From: Alteromonas sp. RKMC-009
GTDB taxonomy: Bacteria > Pseudomonadota > Gammaproteobacteria > Enterobacterales > Alteromonadaceae
Reading direction: 5' to 3'
Assembly: GCF_003584565.2 (NCBI RefSeq)
Contig: NZ_CP031010.1
Location: forward strand, 3,410,001 to 3,474,000
DNA length: 64,000 bases
Shown here: positions 3,001-11,633 of the stretch, piece by piece
How positions within the stretch are numbered: position 1 is the first letter of the stretch
How the letters are laid out: every line of letters starts with the position of its first letter
The notes under the pieces: model-generated
What the model was told of the DNA's origin: nothing
What the model saw: only the letters and a program-made list of their open reading frames with translations
Database searches by the model: none
Translations under genes and position numbers: made by a program

Positions 3001-3345
3001 TCGAGAATTAAGCTGTCTAAGCCCATCAATGACTTAGATTGGCTTGAAACTGTAACGCTCACTCTCGGTGCTCATCCTAAGCATCCTAACCCTAAAGGCC
3101 TTAATAAAGACCTTGGATTACTAGACAAACCTGTGTTTAACTTAAAAGTTTCAAAGGCCCTTGAAAGTTTTGAATTGGCAGAATTAGCTGTAGATTCTTT
3201 GCCAGAAGGCACATTAAACCCGGAGTATTTTCAATATCGTTTATTGAATTTACATGAGCATACAGAAGTTAAGTCAATGAAAATTGCGCCAGGATTCACA
3301 AACTCTGAAAACGAAAAAAAAGGAAATAAATTATGGAACAATTAG
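3001..3345 (+). pseudogene. Open frame without a good start, possible gene remnant at the island left edge
   Basis: This frame is open from just after the TAA at 2998 to a TAG at 3345 (114 codons) and is the same frame as the upstream lipoprotein. There is no ATG; the first usual start is a GTG at 3133, which would give a 70-residue product. Its end overlaps the start of the next gene by 13 nt, as in a translated operon. The sequence is charged and soluble-looking, with no family recognised. Either it is a short gene starting at 3133, or the 3' part of a longer gene that lost its 5' end. Confidence 0.35.
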
Positions 3346-3620
3346 TGAATTTTTTAGCTCAGAACCACACTTTAACAATAATAACTGCCGTTGTTGCACT
3401 GCTCGTTTTAATATTTAGTTTCAAACGCACATCAACAAAAATATTTGCTTCAAATCGAGGTGTTAGTGCGGGCAGAGATATTAATGCTCCAATAATGACT
3501 GGTGATATAAAGACAAATGAAACCTGTGTGTTAGCTCTATTGGCCAATATTGCCACGATTATTGGTGTTTTGGTTAGTATTGCTACTTTATATGTTTCTT
3601 ACTTAGCTTTAGTTAAATAG
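3333..3620 (+). CDS. Small two-helix membrane protein with AGRDINAPI motif, partner of the STAND NTPase
   Basis: The product is 95 residues. Two hydrophobic segments (about residues 14-30 and 66-92) flank a short soluble stretch. That stretch (residues 41-58) reads N-R-G-V-S-A-G-R-D-I-N-A-P-I-M-T-G-D, almost identical to residues 15-33 of the very next protein. A good ribosome site (AAAAGGAAATAAATT) precedes the ATG, and the NTPase gene begins 9 nt after its stop, so the two are surely one operon. The repeated glycine/isoleucine motif resembles short segments often seen beside effector-associated domains in bacterial STAND/NACHT conflict proteins; this resemblance is from memory. I infer a membrane effector or anchor recruited through the shared motif. 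No named family recognised. Confidence 0.65.
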   Translation: MEQLVNFLAQNHTLTIITAVVALLVLIFSFKRTSTKIFASNRGVSAGRDINAPIMTGDIKTNETCVLALLANIATIIGVLVSIATLYVSYLALVK

Positions 3621-3629
3621 GGCCAAGTA

Positions 3630-6600
3630 ATGTTTAAGCAAATTCAAAGCTTAACTAGTAAAGTAGTCGCTAATGATCGTGCTGTCGCAGCGGGGAGAGA
3701 CATTAACGCACCCATACTTACTGGCGATATAAAAGACTCAGAAATTAACATTGATCAAAAGTCATTCGCACAAGCAACATTTTTAGCGCAAGCTAGTGCC
3801 TTTGATAGCTATAACAATAAAATCCCATTACTTTGGGCAACACACGAATGCTTAAAGTTACTATCGCCTTCTAAACGACCTCAAGAAAGTTTAAAAATAA
3901 AGTTTATTCAAAATAAGAGTGGCGTTAACGTAATTGTATTAAATGATGCAGCTAAAAATATAAGCTTACTTCACTTTAAAACAACTAGTGGCGATATTGA
4001 TAAAAACGACCTAAAAGGCATTGTTTCTATATTGGAAAAAGAGTCGAAACCAGATTTATCTTTCCAAATTATAACTAATAGGGTGCTCTCAAAGCCGGTT
4101 AATGACTTTTACTCAAAGGCTGTTTCTGGCGAATTCAAAACAAAGTTATTTAGTAAAGAAAAAGACTCATTTACTAATTTTAAAGTGGCTACTCTCAGCA
4201 ATATTTTTCTTAGCTCGACTGTAGAAACGTTAATCAACCAAAGCTATGCAACACAGTACATTACTCCCGATAATATAGAATATGTAAGTGAGCTAACTAA
4301 GGCTTTAGCCGTATACCTAATATCACATGGGTCATTAAGTGAATACGCAACGATAAAGATCCATGATTTAGAAGTGAGATTTGGTGCAGAGCACTATAAT
4401 GATATATTCCCATCACCTCCAAAATTTGAAGCCTCCATACCACGTAAGCTGAGAAACCACCAAGAGTCAATTTTACAATCAATACTAACCGAAAACAAAA
4501 ACTCGGTAATTCATGCGCGTGGCGGAGTTGGTAAAACAGTAATGGCTAGGCTAGCCAATACAATAATCCCCTCTCATTCTCACTCAATTGTTTACGATTG
4601 CTTCGGTGATGGCCTTTACCGTTCAATTAACAGCCCAAGACACTCTTTTGATAAAGTATTAGTTCAAATCGCTAATGAATTAGCAATTAATGGTTTATGC
4701 GAACCTCTAATTGCAAACGAAAAAAAAGAGCGATTAATGCAAGAGTTTATTTCTTGCATAGAATCCGCAGTGAAATGCTTAAAAAGAGCAAATACACAGG
4801 CACATCTATATATTTTTATAGATGCCGCAGATAATGCGGTCATGGCTGCTAAGGAAAAAGCTGAAAATTCAATTGTTACTCAGTTACTGAATGATTTAAT
4901 GATCGATGGCTGTACTGTGATTGCATTGTGCAGAACCGAGCGAATTGAATTGCTAGAGCCCAGAAATGAAATTGTTCAATTTGAATTGAGAGAGTTTTCT
5001 GAAAGTGAATCACTCGCTCATTTAAAACATTATTATTCGGATGCAACAGAAGAGCATGCCAAAGAATTTCACCGTTTATCAGGAGGTAATCCTCGTGTTC
5101 AAGCATACGCTATTGAAGACTTTCCTGCATCTTTGAATGATATGCTGCAAAACTTAGGACCAACCCTAACTACTGTAGACGCTCAAATAGAGGTTCAGCT
5201 AAATAATGCAATTGAAAGACTAAAAAATAGAAATACCGCCACAGAAGGCTTAAAAATCGATCTGATTTGTACAGCTTTAGCTAGTTTACCTCCATTTATT
5301 CCAATAGACGTTATATCAAAACTCTCTAATCGTTCTGAAGACGAAATTGCAAGCTTCATAAGTGATTTTGGTCGTGGTTTAATTTTAATCGATAAGTGTA
5401 TTCAGTTTAGAGACGAACCAACTGAAACATGGTTTAGGAAACAGTTTGCTTCTACAGCTGAACAAGCTAAAAAGTTTGTAGAAAATATTCAAGAACTAGC
5501 AAATTCGAACAGCTACGTATCTGAATGTTTACCCTTCCTAATGTTGGCAGGGGGAAATCACGAGGACTTAATAGAGCTAGCACTTTCAGAAGAATTCTTG
5601 CCCAAAGGCAATCCAGTGGACGCTAGAAGCATCAGTACATCACGACTAAATGCTGCATTGAAATCAGCCATACAACTGGAAGATTATTTTTCATTTATTA
5701 AGTTAGCATTGAGAACTGGAGAAGAGTTCGCTGGTGACCAAAGGCAAATAGAATTATTAAATCAAAATGTAACCTTAATTGGTATGGTTCAATCGCCTAC
5801 CGAAATTCAAAAATTAGCGTTTCAAGGGCGATTATCTGGCGGATGGAAGGGATCTGAAAATCTTTACAAATCTGCACTGCTATCGTTGCATGGGGAGTTT
5901 AAAGGCGAAGCACTAAGTTATCTAAGAGCAGCAGAAAACTGGTTAAATACCTACTTAAAATCAACAGCAAAAGATAAACGAAAAAGGCATGAGGAAAATC
6001 TTTCTGCTGAAGATGTTGCCTTGCTTTTTACTGTCTACTTAAACCTCCTTGGTCCTGAGAAAGCAATTAATCGAATATTAAGTTTTGCTCCTACACAAGG
6101 GGTTCAAAACGCCATAAGTATCTTTGCAGAGAGCTTACTTGACACATCTAGATTTGAAGATTTAAAACAACTCGCCCTCTACTCTAAACAACATAGCTAT
6201 GTATGCGTTAACTTTATAAATTCACTATTCTTAGTACAACATTCTGTAGATGAGGAAATTTCAAAGGTTTGTTTAAAAAACATTGAGTTCCCTTTCAATG
6301 AACGAAATGAAGACGCTAATAACTCCATTTCAAATCAAAATTTACTTATATTTATAGAACACTGTTCTTCTTATGGAGCCGAAGGTGAAAGGTTGAAATG
6401 TTTACTATATAAACTTTGTAAATTTGAGCCCAGGGCCTGGTTCGCAAACCCTTCATCTTATCACAACGATGATCTGATAGAATTCATTGAATCTGTAGCT
6501 TTACTGGAAGAATTAACTGGTGAGACACTACCAGAAATTGAAACCTTTCCTAAAGAGTTCTTATCTGAAAACTTAAACTACACACAACAACAGGACAAGG

Positions 6601-8681
6601 ATAAATATGAAAAAACTTTATCAGCGATGGTGCCGGCACAGCGTTTTCTAATTCGCACCAGAACTAATAAAATTAATGATTTCGAGTCGGAGTTCAGAAG
6701 CACGTTTAATGAAGTGCAAAAGCACCTTCCCGCTTCTTATGAACGCCAAAATTTCATTCCTGAGTATGTTAGAAAACTAAAACAAAAAAGCATATTCTGC
6801 TCTAAAAGTTTAAATCAGGAACAACAAAAATTATTACTTTCAAACATAGTCAATAACGCACCTTATCAATTGCTACTCCAAGGCCTATATTTTAGTTGCC
6901 GTGTACCAAGCTTATTTCATCTATCAGATACATATGAAAACGCGTTAGCTGCGACTATGTTGAGTCACAATAAAGAAGGTCCTGAAAGCAAAGCTAGTTC
7001 ATATGTTGATATTGCTACAGCCTTATGTTCATTAACACCAGCGTTATCAGCAAAATATTTCAACAAAGCAATTGAAGCTGCCTCAAAATTTGGTAATGAA
7101 GTCCTACATAGACATTTTGCTATTTTAAGTTTGGCTGAGAAAAGCGCTGAAAGTGGTTGCTCTGCTGAATTGACATATCGCTTTTCTCGTAGCACCGAAA
7201 TCTTTTATGAGTATATGTCTGACCATTTCCCGTTGGAGCGAACAATTAGAGCCATCCATGATATGAACGCACCATCGTCATTTGCAATAATGGCCAGGTG
7301 GATAGACAGAGAAGTTACATACTGGGGCCCTTTCGAAGATACGGTGATAGCGTACTCAATCCCCTGTAATACATTGAAACCTCAAGAAGCATGGGCTAGC
7401 CAAGGATTGATTGACAAGAATAGATATGCAGAATTTAGCAGCCAATGCTTAAAATATGCAGAAACCCAAGAGCTTCGCGCTGCTATTTTTAGGGATGCTG
7501 CTCAACAAGCGTTGATTAAAGGGTTACCTAAATCAGCCTTGTTACTAATTAAAAATGCTGGTGACGAGTTTGAATTATCATCTCAACCTCTTAATGACGC
7601 AATTCTATATTTTGACAAACAACACACTCCAGCACGGCCGACTCAAAGGCAGTACCAATCAGAAGAGGAATTTGACCCAGTAGATTGGAACACAGTATTT
7701 AAGTCAAACAACTTTATAAGCTCAAAGGAGATTGAAGCCTCACTTCAAAACTTTAAAGCTTTGATGAATAAAAGTTATGACGAATGTTTCTGGAGTCAAC
7801 TATATGCAAGAGCACCAATCCTAGCAGCAGTCGATGTTTTAGAAGCAATTTTGCAATGTAACTTTTCTTCGAATTACGAATTATTAAATGCTTTGGAAAA
7901 TACACCGAAAGAGTGGTTTGAACGAGAGGAAGTAAAAGAAGTATGGATAAAAGGCTTTAATCTTTATGTACAATTAAACGCAAGTACCGTCTCAAACCCC
8001 TGGTGGCCTGAGCACTGGACTTCACGATTTAAACTAGAAACAGATTTTTCAAAACTAAGGCTCCCAGGTGTAATAAAAGCATTAGAAAATAAAAGCGACT
8101 TTGATGATGCTGAATTTATTTTCTCTGTTATTACAGTACTATCACAACAACTGACTCCTTACGAAGCAAAAGAAGCTCTAACTTACGCTTTAGACAGGGT
8201 AGAACTCCACGTTGATGAAAATGATGCTGATGGAGATTGGTCGGAAGATCTGATTCCCACTGAAAATAATACCGAAGCTTATGCATCTTTTATTTGGTCA
8301 ATATTAGCTAACCCCACATCAAAAATTAGATGGGAGGCAGTCCACATCATCTACCGCCTTGTAGAACTTAACTGCGATGAGATCATTGATTCAATGTTCG
8401 CTTTATTCGATAAAGATGAGATAGGAGCCTTTGGCTCAACACGTTACCCATTTTATAAGTTTCATGCTCAATTATATTTTATGATTGCTATCTACAGAGG
8501 TGCCCAATCAAATGTTCAGCCTTTGTTTAAACATAGTGCATTCCTTCTAAACCAAGCGCTAAGTGCAGACCATATTTTATTAGAGCATTATGCAGCGAAG
8601 ATATCTCAATGCTTATTAAAACAAAGGAAAGATATTTATCTCGCCCCGAATTCAGATAATAAGTGCACCACTCATGGTTAA
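3630..8681 (+). CDS. Giant STAND-type P-loop NTPase, N-terminal and central parts; truncated by IS30
   Basis: The frame gives 1683 residues, of which the last six come from the IS30 left end. Residues 15-34 carry the AGRDINAPILTGDI segment shared with the upstream membrane protein. Residues about 45-270 form an alpha/beta domain with LHFKTT and FQIITN strands that may be a worn PD-(D/E)XK nuclease of the Cap4/DUF4297 kind; this is a weak guess. The NTPase core follows: Walker A GGVGKT (298-303), Walker B IFIDAAD (395-401), a CRTER strand with Arg435, and GNP at 486-488. From about 540 to the end it is a long helical, repeat-like region such as STAND sensors have. It is plausibly an antiviral sensor. 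Its natural C-terminus appears to continue at 9719-11008. Confidence 0.75.
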   Translation: MFKQIQSLTSKVVANDRAVAAGRDINAPILTGDIKDSEINIDQKSFAQATFLAQASAFDSYNNKIPLLWATHECLKLLSPSKRPQESLKIKFIQNKSGVNVIVLNDAAKNISLLHFKTTSGDIDKNDLKGIVSILEKESKPDLSFQIITNRVLSKPVNDFYSKAVSGEFKTKLFSKEKDSFTNFKVATLSNIFLSSTVETLINQSYATQYITPDNIEYVSELTKALAVYLISHGSLSEYATIKIHDLEVRFGAEHYNDIFPSPPKFEASIPRKLRNHQESILQSILTENKNSVIHARGGVGKTVMARLANTIIPSHSHSIVYDCFGDGLYRSINSPRHSFDKVLVQIANELAINGLCEPLIANEKKERLMQEFISCIESAVKCLKRANTQAHLYIFIDAADNAVMAAKEKAENSIVTQLLNDLMIDGCTVIALCRTERIELLEPRNEIVQFELREFSESESLAHLKHYYSDATEEHAKEFHRLSGGNPRVQAYAIEDFPASLNDMLQNLGPTLTTVDAQIEVQLNNAIERLKNRNTATEGLKIDLICTALASLPPFIPIDVISKLSNRSEDEIASFISDFGRGLILIDKCIQFRDEPTETWFRKQFASTAEQAKKFVENIQELANSNSYVSECLPFLMLAGGNHEDLIELALSEEFLPKGNPVDARSISTSRLNAALKSAIQLEDYFSFIKLALRTGEEFAGDQRQIELLNQNVTLIGMVQSPTEIQKLAFQGRLSGGWKGSENLYKSALLSLHGEFKGEALSYLRAAENWLNTYLKSTAKDKRKRHEENLSAEDVALLFTVYLNLLGPEKAINRILSFAPTQGVQNAISIFAESLLDTSRFEDLKQLALYSKQHSYVCVNFINSLFLVQHSVDEEISKVCLKNIEFPFNERNEDANNSISNQNLLIFIEHCSSYGAEGERLKCLLYKLCKFEPRAWFANPSSYHNDDLIEFIESVALLEELTGETLPEIETFPKEFLSENLNYTQQQDKDKYEKTLSAMVPAQRFLIRTRTNKINDFESEFRSTFNEVQKHLPASYERQNFIPEYVRKLKQKSIFCSKSLNQEQQKLLLSNIVNNAPYQLLLQGLYFSCRVPSLFHLSDTYENALAATMLSHNKEGPESKASSYVDIATALCSLTPALSAKYFNKAIEAASKFGNEVLHRHFAILSLAEKSAESGCSAELTYRFSRSTEIFYEYMSDHFPLERTIRAIHDMNAPSSFAIMARWIDREVTYWGPFEDTVIAYSIPCNTLKPQEAWASQGLIDKNRYAEFSSQCLKYAETQELRAAIFRDAAQQALIKGLPKSALLLIKNAGDEFELSSQPLNDAILYFDKQHTPARPTQRQYQSEEEFDPVDWNTVFKSNNFISSKEIEASLQNFKALMNKSYDECFWSQLYARAPILAAVDVLEAILQCNFSSNYELLNALENTPKEWFEREEVKEVWIKGFNLYVQLNASTVSNPWWPEHWTSRFKLETDFSKLRLPGVIKALENKSDFDDAEFIFSVITVLSQQLTPYEAKEALTYALDRVELHVDENDADGDWSEDLIPTENNTEAYASFIWSILANPTSKIRWEAVHIIYRLVELNCDEIIDSMFALFDKDEIGAFGSTRYPFYKFHAQLYFMIAIYRGAQSNVQPLFKHSAFLLNQALSADHILLEHYAAKISQCLLKQRKDIYLAPNSDNKCTTHG

Positions 8682-9717
8682 CGGGTGATAGATGATCAAC
8701 TGCCTGTTGGTGGTATTCTAAAGTCGCCAAACAATTAGAGTATTACCATGAGTTACAAGCAGTTGATCGAGGGACAACGATACCAGATTGAGGCCTACTT
8801 ACGCGAGGGTTTCAGTTACAGGGAGATCGGAAAACGTCTGAGCGTGAGTCACAGCACAATCAGTCGGGAAGTAAATCGCAATAGAATTCGGGATAACCAC
8901 TATTTGCCGGAAGTGGCTCAGGCGAAGGCATTGAAGCGACGTAGCCAAGCCGCAAAGTTCAGGATGTCTGAACTGACGATTACCTTTGTTGAGTTCGGGC
9001 TGAACGAAAAATGGAGCCCTGAGCAAATTGCTGGTGTAGGTAAAATCATCGGTCATCATGTCAGTCACGAATGGATTTATCGCTACGTCCAGCGTGATAA
9101 ATTGAGTGGCGGTAGGTTGTACAAACAGCTGCGCCAGAGTCACAGAAGGTATCGTAAAGGTGACCGTGCGAAGCGGATAATTATTCCGAATCGCGTTGGC
9201 ATTGAGCATCGTCCCGCTATTGTGAACAAGAAAAAACGGTTCGGTGACTGGGAAGCTGACACGGTTCTGGGCAAGCAAGGAACGGGCGCGATTGTTAGTC
9301 TAGTCGAGCGCAAAAGTAAGCTATACCTGATACGCAAAGTGCCAGCGAAAAGCGCAGCAGACGTGGCCCGAGCCATAGTTGGCATGCTGTGGAAATATCG
9401 AGGTCATGTCCGAACAATCACAGCGGACAACGGCAGCGAATTCTGTGACCACGAGCTGGTCGCTGAGAAGCTCAAAACCAATATCTACTTCGCGAATCCG
9501 TACTCATCCTGGGAACGCGGACTGAATGAGAACTTCAACGGTTTACTGCGCCAGTACATCAGGAAAGGCACCGATTTACGGACGGTATCGGATAGGCAAA
9601 TTAGTGAAATAGAGCGGGCATTAAATGCCAGACCGAGAAAGAGCCTCGGCTTCAGGCAACCTGTTGCGGTATTCAATGAATTACGCAAGGCTGCCTAATT
9701 TAGCGAGTGGTGCACTT
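8661..9717. mobile_element. IS30-family insertion sequence splitting the STAND gene
   Basis: The element is about 1057 bp and encodes one transposase. The ends are 13-bp perfect inverted repeats, AAGTGCACCACTC at 8661-8673 and its complement at 9705-9717, with only patchy similarity further inside. The left repeat supplies the last six codons and stop of the upstream NTPase frame; the right repeat supplies the first GTG of the downstream frame. No 2-4 bp target duplication is visible (left flank GATAAT, right flank CGGAGT). Confidence 0.85.
8748..9698 (+). CDS. IS30-family transposase
   Basis: The product is 316 residues. The N-terminal helix-turn-helix, GFSYREIGKRLSVSHSTIS (about residues 20-38), is the typical IS30 DNA-binding segment. 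The DDE catalytic core is complete: first Asp in FGDWEADTVLG, second in TITADNGSEF, and the Glu in NENFNGLLRQYIRKGTDL, the hallmark IS30 C-terminal motif. It ends with the usual RPRKSLGFRQP segment. Nothing suggests inactivation, so the element may be mobile. It is the only gene of the element and its stop lies 19 nt from the right end. It is far richer in G and C than the island genes it interrupts, which points to separate, later acquisition. Confidence 0.95.
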   Translation: MSYKQLIEGQRYQIEAYLREGFSYREIGKRLSVSHSTISREVNRNRIRDNHYLPEVAQAKALKRRSQAAKFRMSELTITFVEFGLNEKWSPEQIAGVGKIIGHHVSHEWIYRYVQRDKLSGGRLYKQLRQSHRRYRKGDRAKRIIIPNRVGIEHRPAIVNKKKRFGDWEADTVLGKQGTGAIVSLVERKSKLYLIRKVPAKSAADVARAIVGMLWKYRGHVRTITADNGSEFCDHELVAEKLKTNIYFANPYSSWERGLNENFNGLLRQYIRKGTDLRTVSDRQISEIERALNARPRKSLGFRQPVAVFNELRKAA

Positions 9718-11008
9718 CGGAGTTGAATTCGCGGCTAATGAAAAAGACAAATTAGATACGGTAGGTGTTAGTACATTTAATAAGAATATACATAAAGAAA
9801 CCAATAAATTTGAAAAAGCTAACATTTCTAATATTGATAAAGAGTTACCCGACCTATCATTTTTTCTAGACTTCCAAGAATACTGGATAAAGCCACTAGC
9901 AAATGTGTTTAATATATCTGTTAAAGAATTAAAACAGACAGCGATAAACATAGTAGTTAATGAATGGGGAGTTACTTTAAGCGAAAGGTTTATTAAAGAT
10001 CCACGACCTCATGGTCATAAAGAAACACATGCAAGTCACAGCTCTATACCGTCGACTCAGCCTTATGATTTTTACTTGGGGTATCACGTCATTTTCACAA
10101 TGGCATCAAGGTTACTCAAAAGCCACCCTGTAGTTGAAGGTAAATATGACTGGGAAGATGATCTTTGGGCTGACTGGATTTCTGACCACCTTTTATCGAT
10201 GGATAATGGCTATCTTTTGGCAGACCTCAGAGATCCAGCACCTTTAGTAAGAAGGGAGTGGCTTAGCAAAAAAATTACTGACTCATGGAGATGGGAAATT
10301 GAATATAGTGACTTTCTCGAAGGACTACTATTAAGTAAAGGTGGCAGAACATTTTTATGTGTGACAGGTTCTTGGTCTGACAATGATGGTAGAGGCAACA
10401 ACGAAACTTACAGCGTCTCCAGCGCACTAGTATCCGTTAACAATTCAGCCTCCTTGTTAAAAGCTCTAGTTTCATGCAGAAATCCTCACGATTACAAATT
10501 ACCTTCCTATAACGAGGAACGCTTCGAATTAGATGATTCCGCTTTCAAATTGAAAGGCTGGTTGCTTGAACCTGACGAGTATAAAAAACTGGATGAAATA
10601 GATCCTTACGCTGCTGAGCTAAAGTTTCCAATTCGAAGAATTAGTAAAGAACATGAAGAGTTACTCGATTTGCATTATTCCTTACTTTCTAGAACATACT
10701 TGGATGATAAGGGAAATTCTCAGGGGTTCTCTGAAACATGGACCGATACACGCAGTAATGACCGTTATAGTGACAACATAATTCGCGACGGTAGTAGGCT
10801 TTATCTGTCTTTAGATATATTAAAGCATTTATGCGTTAAAACTAAATTATCACTAATTTTGGAAGTATCAATTAGCCGCCAAAGCTCAACTCACGATAAG
10901 GATGTGCCAGACGATGTCAAATACCCGGGACCATATTGTAACTTGTATACTCTCTCAAAAGATGGAGTCATCAGAGATTACCAATCAAGAAGTTATCAAC
11001 TTAGGTAA
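9707..11008 (+). CDS. C-terminal part of the STAND NTPase, separated by IS30 (gene fragment)
   Basis: This is an open frame of 433 residues whose first codons (GTG GTG CAC TT) lie in the IS30 right end, so its present start is not native. From about 9719 it reads as island DNA and encodes a soluble mixed alpha/beta region. Striking stretches are YDFYLGYHVIFTMASRLL, WADWISDHLL and LADLRDPAPLVRREW. I recall closely similar runs (a YxSYHAM-like helix, then LADRRDPxPL) at the C-terminus of very large bacterial STAND ATPases, and the upstream gene lacks such an end. The intact protein would have been about 2,100 residues. The two parts are in different frames, so simple IS removal would not rejoin them exactly. 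It is unlikely to be functional alone. Confidence 0.7.
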   Translation: MVHFGVEFAANEKDKLDTVGVSTFNKNIHKETNKFEKANISNIDKELPDLSFFLDFQEYWIKPLANVFNISVKELKQTAINIVVNEWGVTLSERFIKDPRPHGHKETHASHSSIPSTQPYDFYLGYHVIFTMASRLLKSHPVVEGKYDWEDDLWADWISDHLLSMDNGYLLADLRDPAPLVRREWLSKKITDSWRWEIEYSDFLEGLLLSKGGRTFLCVTGSWSDNDGRGNNETYSVSSALVSVNNSASLLKALVSCRNPHDYKLPSYNEERFELDDSAFKLKGWLLEPDEYKKLDEIDPYAAELKFPIRRISKEHEELLDLHYSLLSRTYLDDKGNSQGFSETWTDTRSNDRYSDNIIRDGSRLYLSLDILKHLCVKTKLSLILEVSISRQSSTHDKDVPDDVKYPGPYCNLYTLSKDGVIRDYQSRSYQLR

Positions 11009-11633
11009 AGCTATCATCACTGAGCTAGGCATGATAATTGATTGTAATACTCCAGCCCGCTGGTTAGTACATTATATTGCTGAAAATATTTACAATTCAG
11101 AAAACTGTCAAGGTGAAGAAAAGGAGGAAGCTGAAAGGAAATGTGTAGATGCAATTTTTAAGCTTTGGCATCATCGCTCTGAGCTCCCTAGAGGTATTAA
11201 CCCATTTAGCGAATTTGACTCTGTTTTCAGAGGCCTTTCAAGGTTAGATAACTCGTCTCAAAAACCATACTTCAATGAATTTTCACAATTTGATCATCAG
11301 ATAGCTCCTGAAGAAACAGCTGAAAGCAAACAATGGGTTGATATAGCCATTTCTATCGATAAAGCAGCAAAAGAGTTAGTTTCAGAAAGCTTTAACTCGG
11401 CTGCTGCCTTAGCTATTACAGAGAAGTCCAGGAAGATATTAAAGCTAGCACCTGAAGGTTCAGGTGAAGATATCAGGATAATGCTCAGTTTTATTTCTGA
11501 TGAAGAAGCTAATTCAAAAGAAAATGAAATAAAAGCGATTCAATCAAAAATAGAAAAAGTTAAAGCACTAAAATCTATTTGCGATGTGTTTATAGAAAAA
11601 TACCAAAACCATATTGCCCAAATAGATAATTAA
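10962..11633 (+). CDS. Conserved companion protein of the STAND NTPase, unknown function
   Basis: I place the start at the ATG at 10962, giving 223 residues and a 47-nt overlap with the preceding frame in another phase; an earlier in-frame start at 10902 would overlap by 107 nt. The N-terminal half has the run PARWLVHYIAE, then an acidic helix, then IFKLWHHRSELPRGINPF. The C-terminal quarter (from about residue 170) is a probable coiled coil rich in Lys and Glu. I recall similar ARWxAHYxAE and LWxHRxxLP runs in small genes that follow giant STAND ATPase genes, but cannot name a family. Tight overlap implies translational coupling with the NTPase C-terminal part, so it probably belongs to the same system. 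Confidence 0.6.
   Translation: MESSEITNQEVINLGKAIITELGMIIDCNTPARWLVHYIAENIYNSENCQGEEKEEAERKCVDAIFKLWHHRSELPRGINPFSEFDSVFRGLSRLDNSSQKPYFNEFSQFDHQIAPEETAESKQWVDIAISIDKAAKELVSESFNSAAALAITEKSRKILKLAPEGSGEDIRIMLSFISDEEANSKENEIKAIQSKIEKVKALKSICDVFIEKYQNHIAQIDN

Follow-up and report, generated by a model that had tools for sequence, protein, structure and literature searches.

The DNA analysed, referred to below as the window, is a stretch of 64,000 nt from Alteromonas sp. RKMC-009 (NZ_CP031010.1, positions 3,410,001 to 3,474,000, forward strand). An island near its start carries a gene for a small membrane protein, a long NTPase gene interrupted by an insertion sequence, and a companion gene. Its features are listed here by window coordinates, all on the plus strand, with the evidence for each in brackets.

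3333..3620, +, 95-aa two-helix membrane protein, the proposed separate effector (ORF, two hydrophobic segments, AF2 model, 71 homologues)
3432..3521, +, copy of the shared motif in the membrane protein, within its loop, residues 34-63 (BLASTP, invariant columns)
3630..8644, +, 5' piece of avs3a, its open frame running on to 8681, into the IS element (PADLOC, NCBIfam, SeAvs3 8dgc)
3654..3743, +, shared motif at the N-terminus of Avs3a, residues 9-38 (BLASTP)
3756..4319, +, segment at the position of the Cap4 nuclease, lacking its signature, roughly residues 43-230, both limits approximate (sequence, alignment, Foldseek)
4521..4538, +, Walker A, GGVGKT (within avs3a)
4812..4832, +, Walker B, IFIDAAD (within avs3a)
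5076..5096, +, GNP motif, LSGGNPR (within avs3a)
8645..9734, +, IS30-type element inside avs3a, 1,090 bp (transposase ORF, genome copies, shared ends)
9735..11008, +, 3' piece of avs3a, its open frame listed from 9707 (PADLOC)
10902..11633, +, avs3b, the companion (PADLOC, NCBIfam)

An earlier note on this DNA had described three genes here, and the open reading frames at 3333-3620, 3630-8681 with 9707-11008, and 10902-11633 bear it out, as do the Walker A, Walker B and GNP motifs that it had placed in the NTPase, found at 4521-4538, 4812-4832 and 5076-5096. It had also joined the NTPase across 8660 and 9719. That this is one gene in two pieces was correct; the limits were slightly off, since the intervening DNA is an IS30-type element from 8645 to 9734. 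The transposase ORF of the element (8748-9698) contains HTH_38 and rve domains (Pfam). Five further copies at 99-100% identity are present in the genome, including one on the second contig; another genomic match, the sixth, is partial, at 67%. The exact ends of the element are common to two of the five further copies, the two for which the comparison of ends was resolved; three other-strand copies were left out of it. Because avs3a is cut by the element, the sensor copy in this strain is probably inactive. Intact copies of the gene are present in other bacteria. The two pieces correspond to positions 218-1669 and 1672-2088 of the PADLOC Avs3a profile, that is, to consecutive parts of it, so no other large lesion is seen. 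A search of the genome for a second Avs3a match found none.

The G+C content is 36% in both parts of the island compared to 49% in the window from 12000 on; the remaining ORFs of at least 230 aa, read by eye, resemble ordinary chromosomal genes. The island was therefore probably acquired. In an empty-site comparison on the side of the CAAX protease, that gene was matched in only 4 of 26 relatives, and no empty site came to light. An ORF at 3133-3345 has no Pfam match.

The earlier note considered the locus undescribed and matched it to no named system. This part of it did not survive profile searches, and an "unknown STAND system" was rejected when PADLOC and NCBIfam named Avs3a and Avs3b. PADLOC assigns both NTPase pieces to Avs3a (E = 6.8e-265 for the 5' piece and 2e-78 for the 3' piece) and the companion to Avs3b (E = 1.8e-39). 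The NCBIfam matches agree in family and lie under the cut-offs: Avs3a at E = 1.3e-292, below the equivalog cut-off of 2800 bits, with 974 and 263 bits for the two window pieces, 1217 for the homologue G215 and 1522 for the Cap4-type homologue G289; and Avs3b at E = 1.2e-41, with 143 bits under a cut-off of 200. The solved structure of SeAvs3 (PDB 8dgc) matches the 5' piece from query residue 141 on (E = 6e-165), and with a profile of relatives the match starts at residue 129. By homology, the NTPase and its companion are Avs3a and Avs3b of AVAST type 3, a named system, and standard tools would label the locus as such. The note's view of the NTPase as an antiviral sensor of the STAND type, belonging to a module of three genes, is upheld. 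Avs3 is a member of a sensor class with known phage triggers, as far as passages of PMC12931631 and the title of 8dgc indicate.

Homology to Avs3a extends across the NTPase and the sensor, over their length in SeAvs3, and the Avs3b gene is in place. In contrast to AVAST type 3, the protein has lost the signature of the active N-terminal Cap4-type nuclease, judged by sequence only, has gained an N-terminal motif, and is preceded by a separate membrane protein. With the Cap4 signature lost, the system is termed Avs3-derived, and not a canonical AVAST type 3 nuclease. Avs5, an Avs of the Sir2 type, belongs to the same sensor class and has the same tripartite plan in the portions of PMC12931631 that describe it, but its Sir2 effector resides within the same protein, whereas here the candidate effector is separate.

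In canonical Avs3a the strings [IV]EG and QLK[HY] occur in 12 of 12 sequences, with an Asp between them that was read by eye. These sequences (L014, L016, L026-L029, L034-L036 and L038-L040) were chosen for a readable N-terminus, and two weak partial Avs3a matches, G154 and G431, were not used. A search with the first 270 residues of the window protein gave 32 relatives; QLK[HY] is present in none of them and [IV]EG in one (P0079), in a different context, and alignment A2 takes in 24 of the 32. When six canonical and 34 variant N-termini are aligned, the signature Gln is replaced by Tyr or His in all 34 variants, the Glu column is a gap in all 34, and the nuclease Lys is kept in all 34. The Asp column, with Asp in 20 of 34 and Asn in nine, is not trustworthy because the strands are not surely aligned.

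Two results support descent of this N-terminal domain from Cap4: an hhalign match (E = 2.6e-5, probability 75) and the helix-helix-three strands-helix-strand-helix order in an AF2 model of the N-terminal 270 residues, a model of low confidence (pLDDT 46). Foldseek with that model supports it weakly: SeAvs3 ranks first (E = 6e-3), ahead of MspJI, EndoMS and Cap4, and none reaches E <= 0.001. The domain would appear to be a dead nuclease. Some residual activity may nevertheless persist, given the conserved Lys, the uncertain Asp column and the low quality of the domain model.

The protein encoded upstream of avs3a has two hydrophobic segments, as the earlier note had said of it, and so do 69 of 69 homologues tested; these are 69 of the 71 homologues that a profile search gave at E <= 0.001 from 7,990 candidates scored, P0049 and P0103 being left out. 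Across the 69 proteins, the loop between the helices contains on average 4.8 Lys plus Arg residues, compared to 0.2 at the N-terminal end and 0.8 at the C-terminal end. By the positive-inside rule the loop is probably cytoplasmic. An AF2 model of the 95-aa protein (pLDDT 71) has helices at residues 12-39 and 61-94, with residues 40-60 unstructured. Nine columns are invariant in an alignment of 45 partners (A1, from 49 homologues, with P0019, P0022, P0048 and P0049 left out), and five of these lie within the shared motif, the best-conserved stretch of the protein: R42, V44, T56, G57 and D58.

Neither Pfam nor PADLOC places the membrane protein in a known effector family above cut-off, and a PDB search with it gave no match. 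Phage_holin_2_3 was not significant, at E = 0.15-0.27 for three of five partner proteins and under its cut-off, nor was the PADLOC "2TM Effector" (E = 0.89). A scan of viral_contigs gave 44 pattern stretches with no relative among them, and neither the membrane protein nor the NTPase piece had a match among phage records.

It was already noted from the sequence that the membrane protein and the NTPase carry a common motif, and BLASTP agrees: residues 34-63 of the partner and 9-38 of Avs3a are identical at 19 of 30 positions (E = 2e-11 for this single comparison). The likeness of the approximately 25-residue motif in the two predicted proteins is beyond chance. In the membrane protein the motif region is modelled as unstructured, with pLDDT values of 54-64. 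A profile of the motif found no match in the PDB at E <= 10.

The motif occurs in two subtypes, A (AGRDI, AGGNI and similar) and B ([IVL]GGNxN and similar). Sensor and partner agree in subtype in 21 of 21 pairs, 16 A/A and five B/B; seven of the pairs were read from one DNA locus and 14 were matched only by contigs of identical size. A tree of the sensor body, with 36 rows of which P0081, lacking a readable motif, is unlabelled, requires nine changes of receptor subtype, seven or more of them forced by supported branches, and five of partner subtype. Four of four independent subtype contrasts on supported branches agree (p = 0.125, a comparison that cannot reach significance). The mean motif identity over 15 positions is 11.0 in pairs and 9.9 when shuffled (p = 0.0001, with relatedness uncontrolled). 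The closest sensor, P0053, is 97% identical to that of the window from residue 101 on and 50% identical over residues 1-50; it is of subtype B, and the window sensor is of subtype A. This divergence indicates that the N-terminal block was exchanged as a module, presumably together with the partner gene. Such an exchange fits a specificity module; linkage alone would also keep the pairs matched, and the agreement in subtype may reflect mere linkage of two adjacent stretches.

The membrane gene directly precedes a motif-bearing Avs3a in seven of seven loci read, the window included, a count that is favoured by the fact that most loci were found via the membrane gene. This arrangement sustains the two-part design of sensor and membrane partner that the earlier note had proposed. 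The two genes are 5-9 nt apart in six loci, and in L006 they are listed as overlapping. At the Avs3b position, six of the seven loci have an ORF that overlaps the end of avs3a, and the contig of L003 ends earlier; the Avs3b profile search covered the window companion. Five loci are on genome contigs, from Shewanella sp. PS-2, Vibrio sp. Isolate34, Thalassotalea loyana LMG 22536 (L005), Pseudocolwellia sp. AS88 (L006) and Vibrio coralliilyticus, and one is on the conjugative plasmid pSBAL17502 of Shewanella baltica BA175. Four of 17 non-Shewanella plasmid matches were examined. The names attached to partner-like proteins include Alteromonas, Pseudoalteromonas, Vibrio, Shewanella, Pseudocolwellia, a Kangiellaceae and a Cocleimonas assembly.

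The system is rare: within the genus, the genome of the window is the only one of 59 to have it, and in a sample of the order two of 394 do. A search from the sensor side found an Avs3a match in 11 of 395 genomes of a family sample; in two of the 11 the N-terminus lies outside the sequence examined. All three motif-type Avs3a genes found in this way have the partner gene, and these are the window and two genomes equal by coordinates to L005 and L006, both partner-side finds. The outcome that the earlier note had named as evidence against it, homologues that never occur with the membrane protein, did not arise, on the sensor side in these three genomes. The six readable Cap4-type Avs3a of the family sample have no motif ORF in the flank examined, and the Cap4-type genes G289 and G368 of the order sample have no partner match. 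Presence of the partner and loss of the nuclease signature, as read from sequence, go together in these few cases.

The arrangement resembles two kinds of signalling described in bacteria. BASS pairs were found in silico and in multicellular bacteria, and the available text of PMC7889193 and PMC7885112 puts a role in host defence as a possibility. As described in part of PMC7889193, an NLR-type NTPase starts with a short motif that recurs in an adjacent protein with a membrane helix, and here too the same short motif is on the NLR N-terminus and on the product of the neighbouring gene. Theirs is at the C-terminus of the BELL domain, whereas here it occupies residues 34-63 of 95, in the loop between the helices. 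Motifs of type B are similar to the RHIM core, which an excerpt of PMC7885112 gives as G-(I,V)-Q-(I,V)-G, except for the Gln, which is found in 0 of 69 partners and 0 of 26 sensors (0 of 95 motifs), the sensors counted being those with 18 residues before TGD/N. RHIM is not among the Pfam domains listed for five proteins with type-B motifs. Membership in RHIM/BASS3 was rejected on the absence of the core Gln, of a Pfam RHIM and of a PDB match. The shared motif may, by analogy, work like a BASS; for the same reasons membership is not claimed.

In the EAD principle, one copy of a domain is on the NTPase and one on the product of an adjacent gene, and neighbours are alike, according to the sections of PMC7159879 that treat it; these and parts of PMC8195603 place it in STAND and other conflict systems. 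Here too one copy is on the NTPase and another on the neighbouring product, which is also the copy most alike (subtype agreement in 21 of 21, for which linkage is an alternative cause). EADs are small folded domains, whereas the Avs3 sensor carries a motif of about 25 residues, and the 95-aa protein has no Pfam match above cut-off.

The reading that we favour, with a probability of about 0.68, is that of an anti-phage system derived from Avs3, with sensor and effector on two separate proteins. Through its C-terminal region Avs3a would still sense a phage protein (for SeAvs3, the large terminase subunit), and it would oligomerise through its NTPase. The clustered N-terminal motifs would then recruit and order, by homotypic contact, the copy of the motif that the membrane protein bears on its cytoplasmic loop. 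The helices of the membrane protein would in turn oligomerise, damage the inner membrane and halt the infected cell. Templating of the amyloid type, as in BASS/RHIM signalling, would be the likeliest form of the motif contact. We infer the relay, its amyloid nature and the membrane damage.

It is unlikely, though it deserves more weight than the other alternatives, that the coupling is real but is a stoichiometric contact between folded parts, like EADs or death domains in its logic and non-amyloid, a proposal that departs from the favoured one in the amyloid step alone. The EAD precedent in STAND and other conflict systems (PMC7159879 and PMC8195603) and the missing RHIM Gln speak for it; yet the two proteins have no more than about 25-30 residues in common, a stretch that is unstructured in the model (pLDDT 54-64), whereas EADs are, in the portion of PMC7159879 that defines them, small helical or alpha+beta domains. 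It seems rather improbable that the two-helix protein is an anchor that tethers Avs3 to the inner membrane via the motif, leaving residual nuclease or Avs3b to kill. Retention of the nuclease Lys in 34 of 34 variants, with a fold that seems retained, would suit an anchor, and partial text of PMC12931631 describes a Pseudomonas Avs5 that depends on an N-terminal localisation segment and accumulates at sites associated with the membrane. An active nuclease is, however, unlikely to tolerate loss of the signature Gln in 34 of 34 and of QLK[HY] in 32 of 32.

There is little to recommend a third proposal, in which the membrane protein is a brake that holds Avs3 in check, as inhibitor or antidote, until infection releases it: its gene comes first and adjoins the sensor, and the same motif could cap the sensor, but with a dead nuclease no effector would remain, unless it is Avs3b. 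We give equally small credence to hitchhiking, in which the motif is a duplicated stretch with no signalling role and the matched subtypes arise from recombination of neighbours. About 0.3 kb separates the two stretches, and they seem to travel together as a block; against this, R42, V44, T56, G57 and D58 are invariant in 45 of 45 partners, and the gene pair persists across several genera and on a plasmid.

A literature search found no Avs3 with a separate membrane partner; Gao et al. 2022 may still mention one. What is unusual here is the front end, with its degenerate nuclease, shared motif and membrane partner, an uncommon variant of a named system. The fuller proposal is tentative, and we hold it at somewhat less than even odds: in marine unicellular gammaproteobacteria, an Avs with a retired nuclease would signal by seeding an amyloid on a small membrane-killing protein, and the motif would have two specificities that can be exchanged. 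If true, it would join amyloid immune signalling to a sensor class with known phage ligands, and would show a defence NLR exchanging its built-in effector for a recruited one. The path from phage protein through motif assembly to membrane damage would then be testable in one system, with the natural subtypes as a control of specificity.

Five database sensor proteins (P0066, P0067, P0069, P0071 and P0072) begin within the motif, with MAIGG... or MAIGE..., and in these the true start has probably been missed, so that their motif would be longer than annotated. Avs3a relatives of the Cap4 type, with the canonical nuclease N-terminus, are found within the window's bacterial family (L034-L036 and L038-L040, in which several Avs3a frames are short or ended by contig edges), and one of them, at L035, comes from the window's own genus.

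Two other features belong to the window itself:

1971-2837: CAAX-protease-like (Rce1-like) gene, at the left side of the island
8645-9734: IS30-type element, with five further genomic copies at 99-100%

The CAAX-protease-like gene is patchy too, with a match in 4 of 26 relatives, the window's genome included in the count. With these near-identical copies in the same genome, one of them on the second contig (C2:44705-45794), the IS30-type element is one that has been active in the recent past.

In Thalassotalea loyana, three ORFs immediately 5′ of the membrane gene (L005:4712-9979) were read by eye as a type I restriction-modification-like set. On plasmid pSBAL17502 of Shewanella baltica BA175, a different neighbor lies a short distance before the membrane gene:

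L011:10115-11035: annotated AbiH-family abortive infection gene

Given this annotation, the membrane gene on pSBAL17502 is in a defence-island context.
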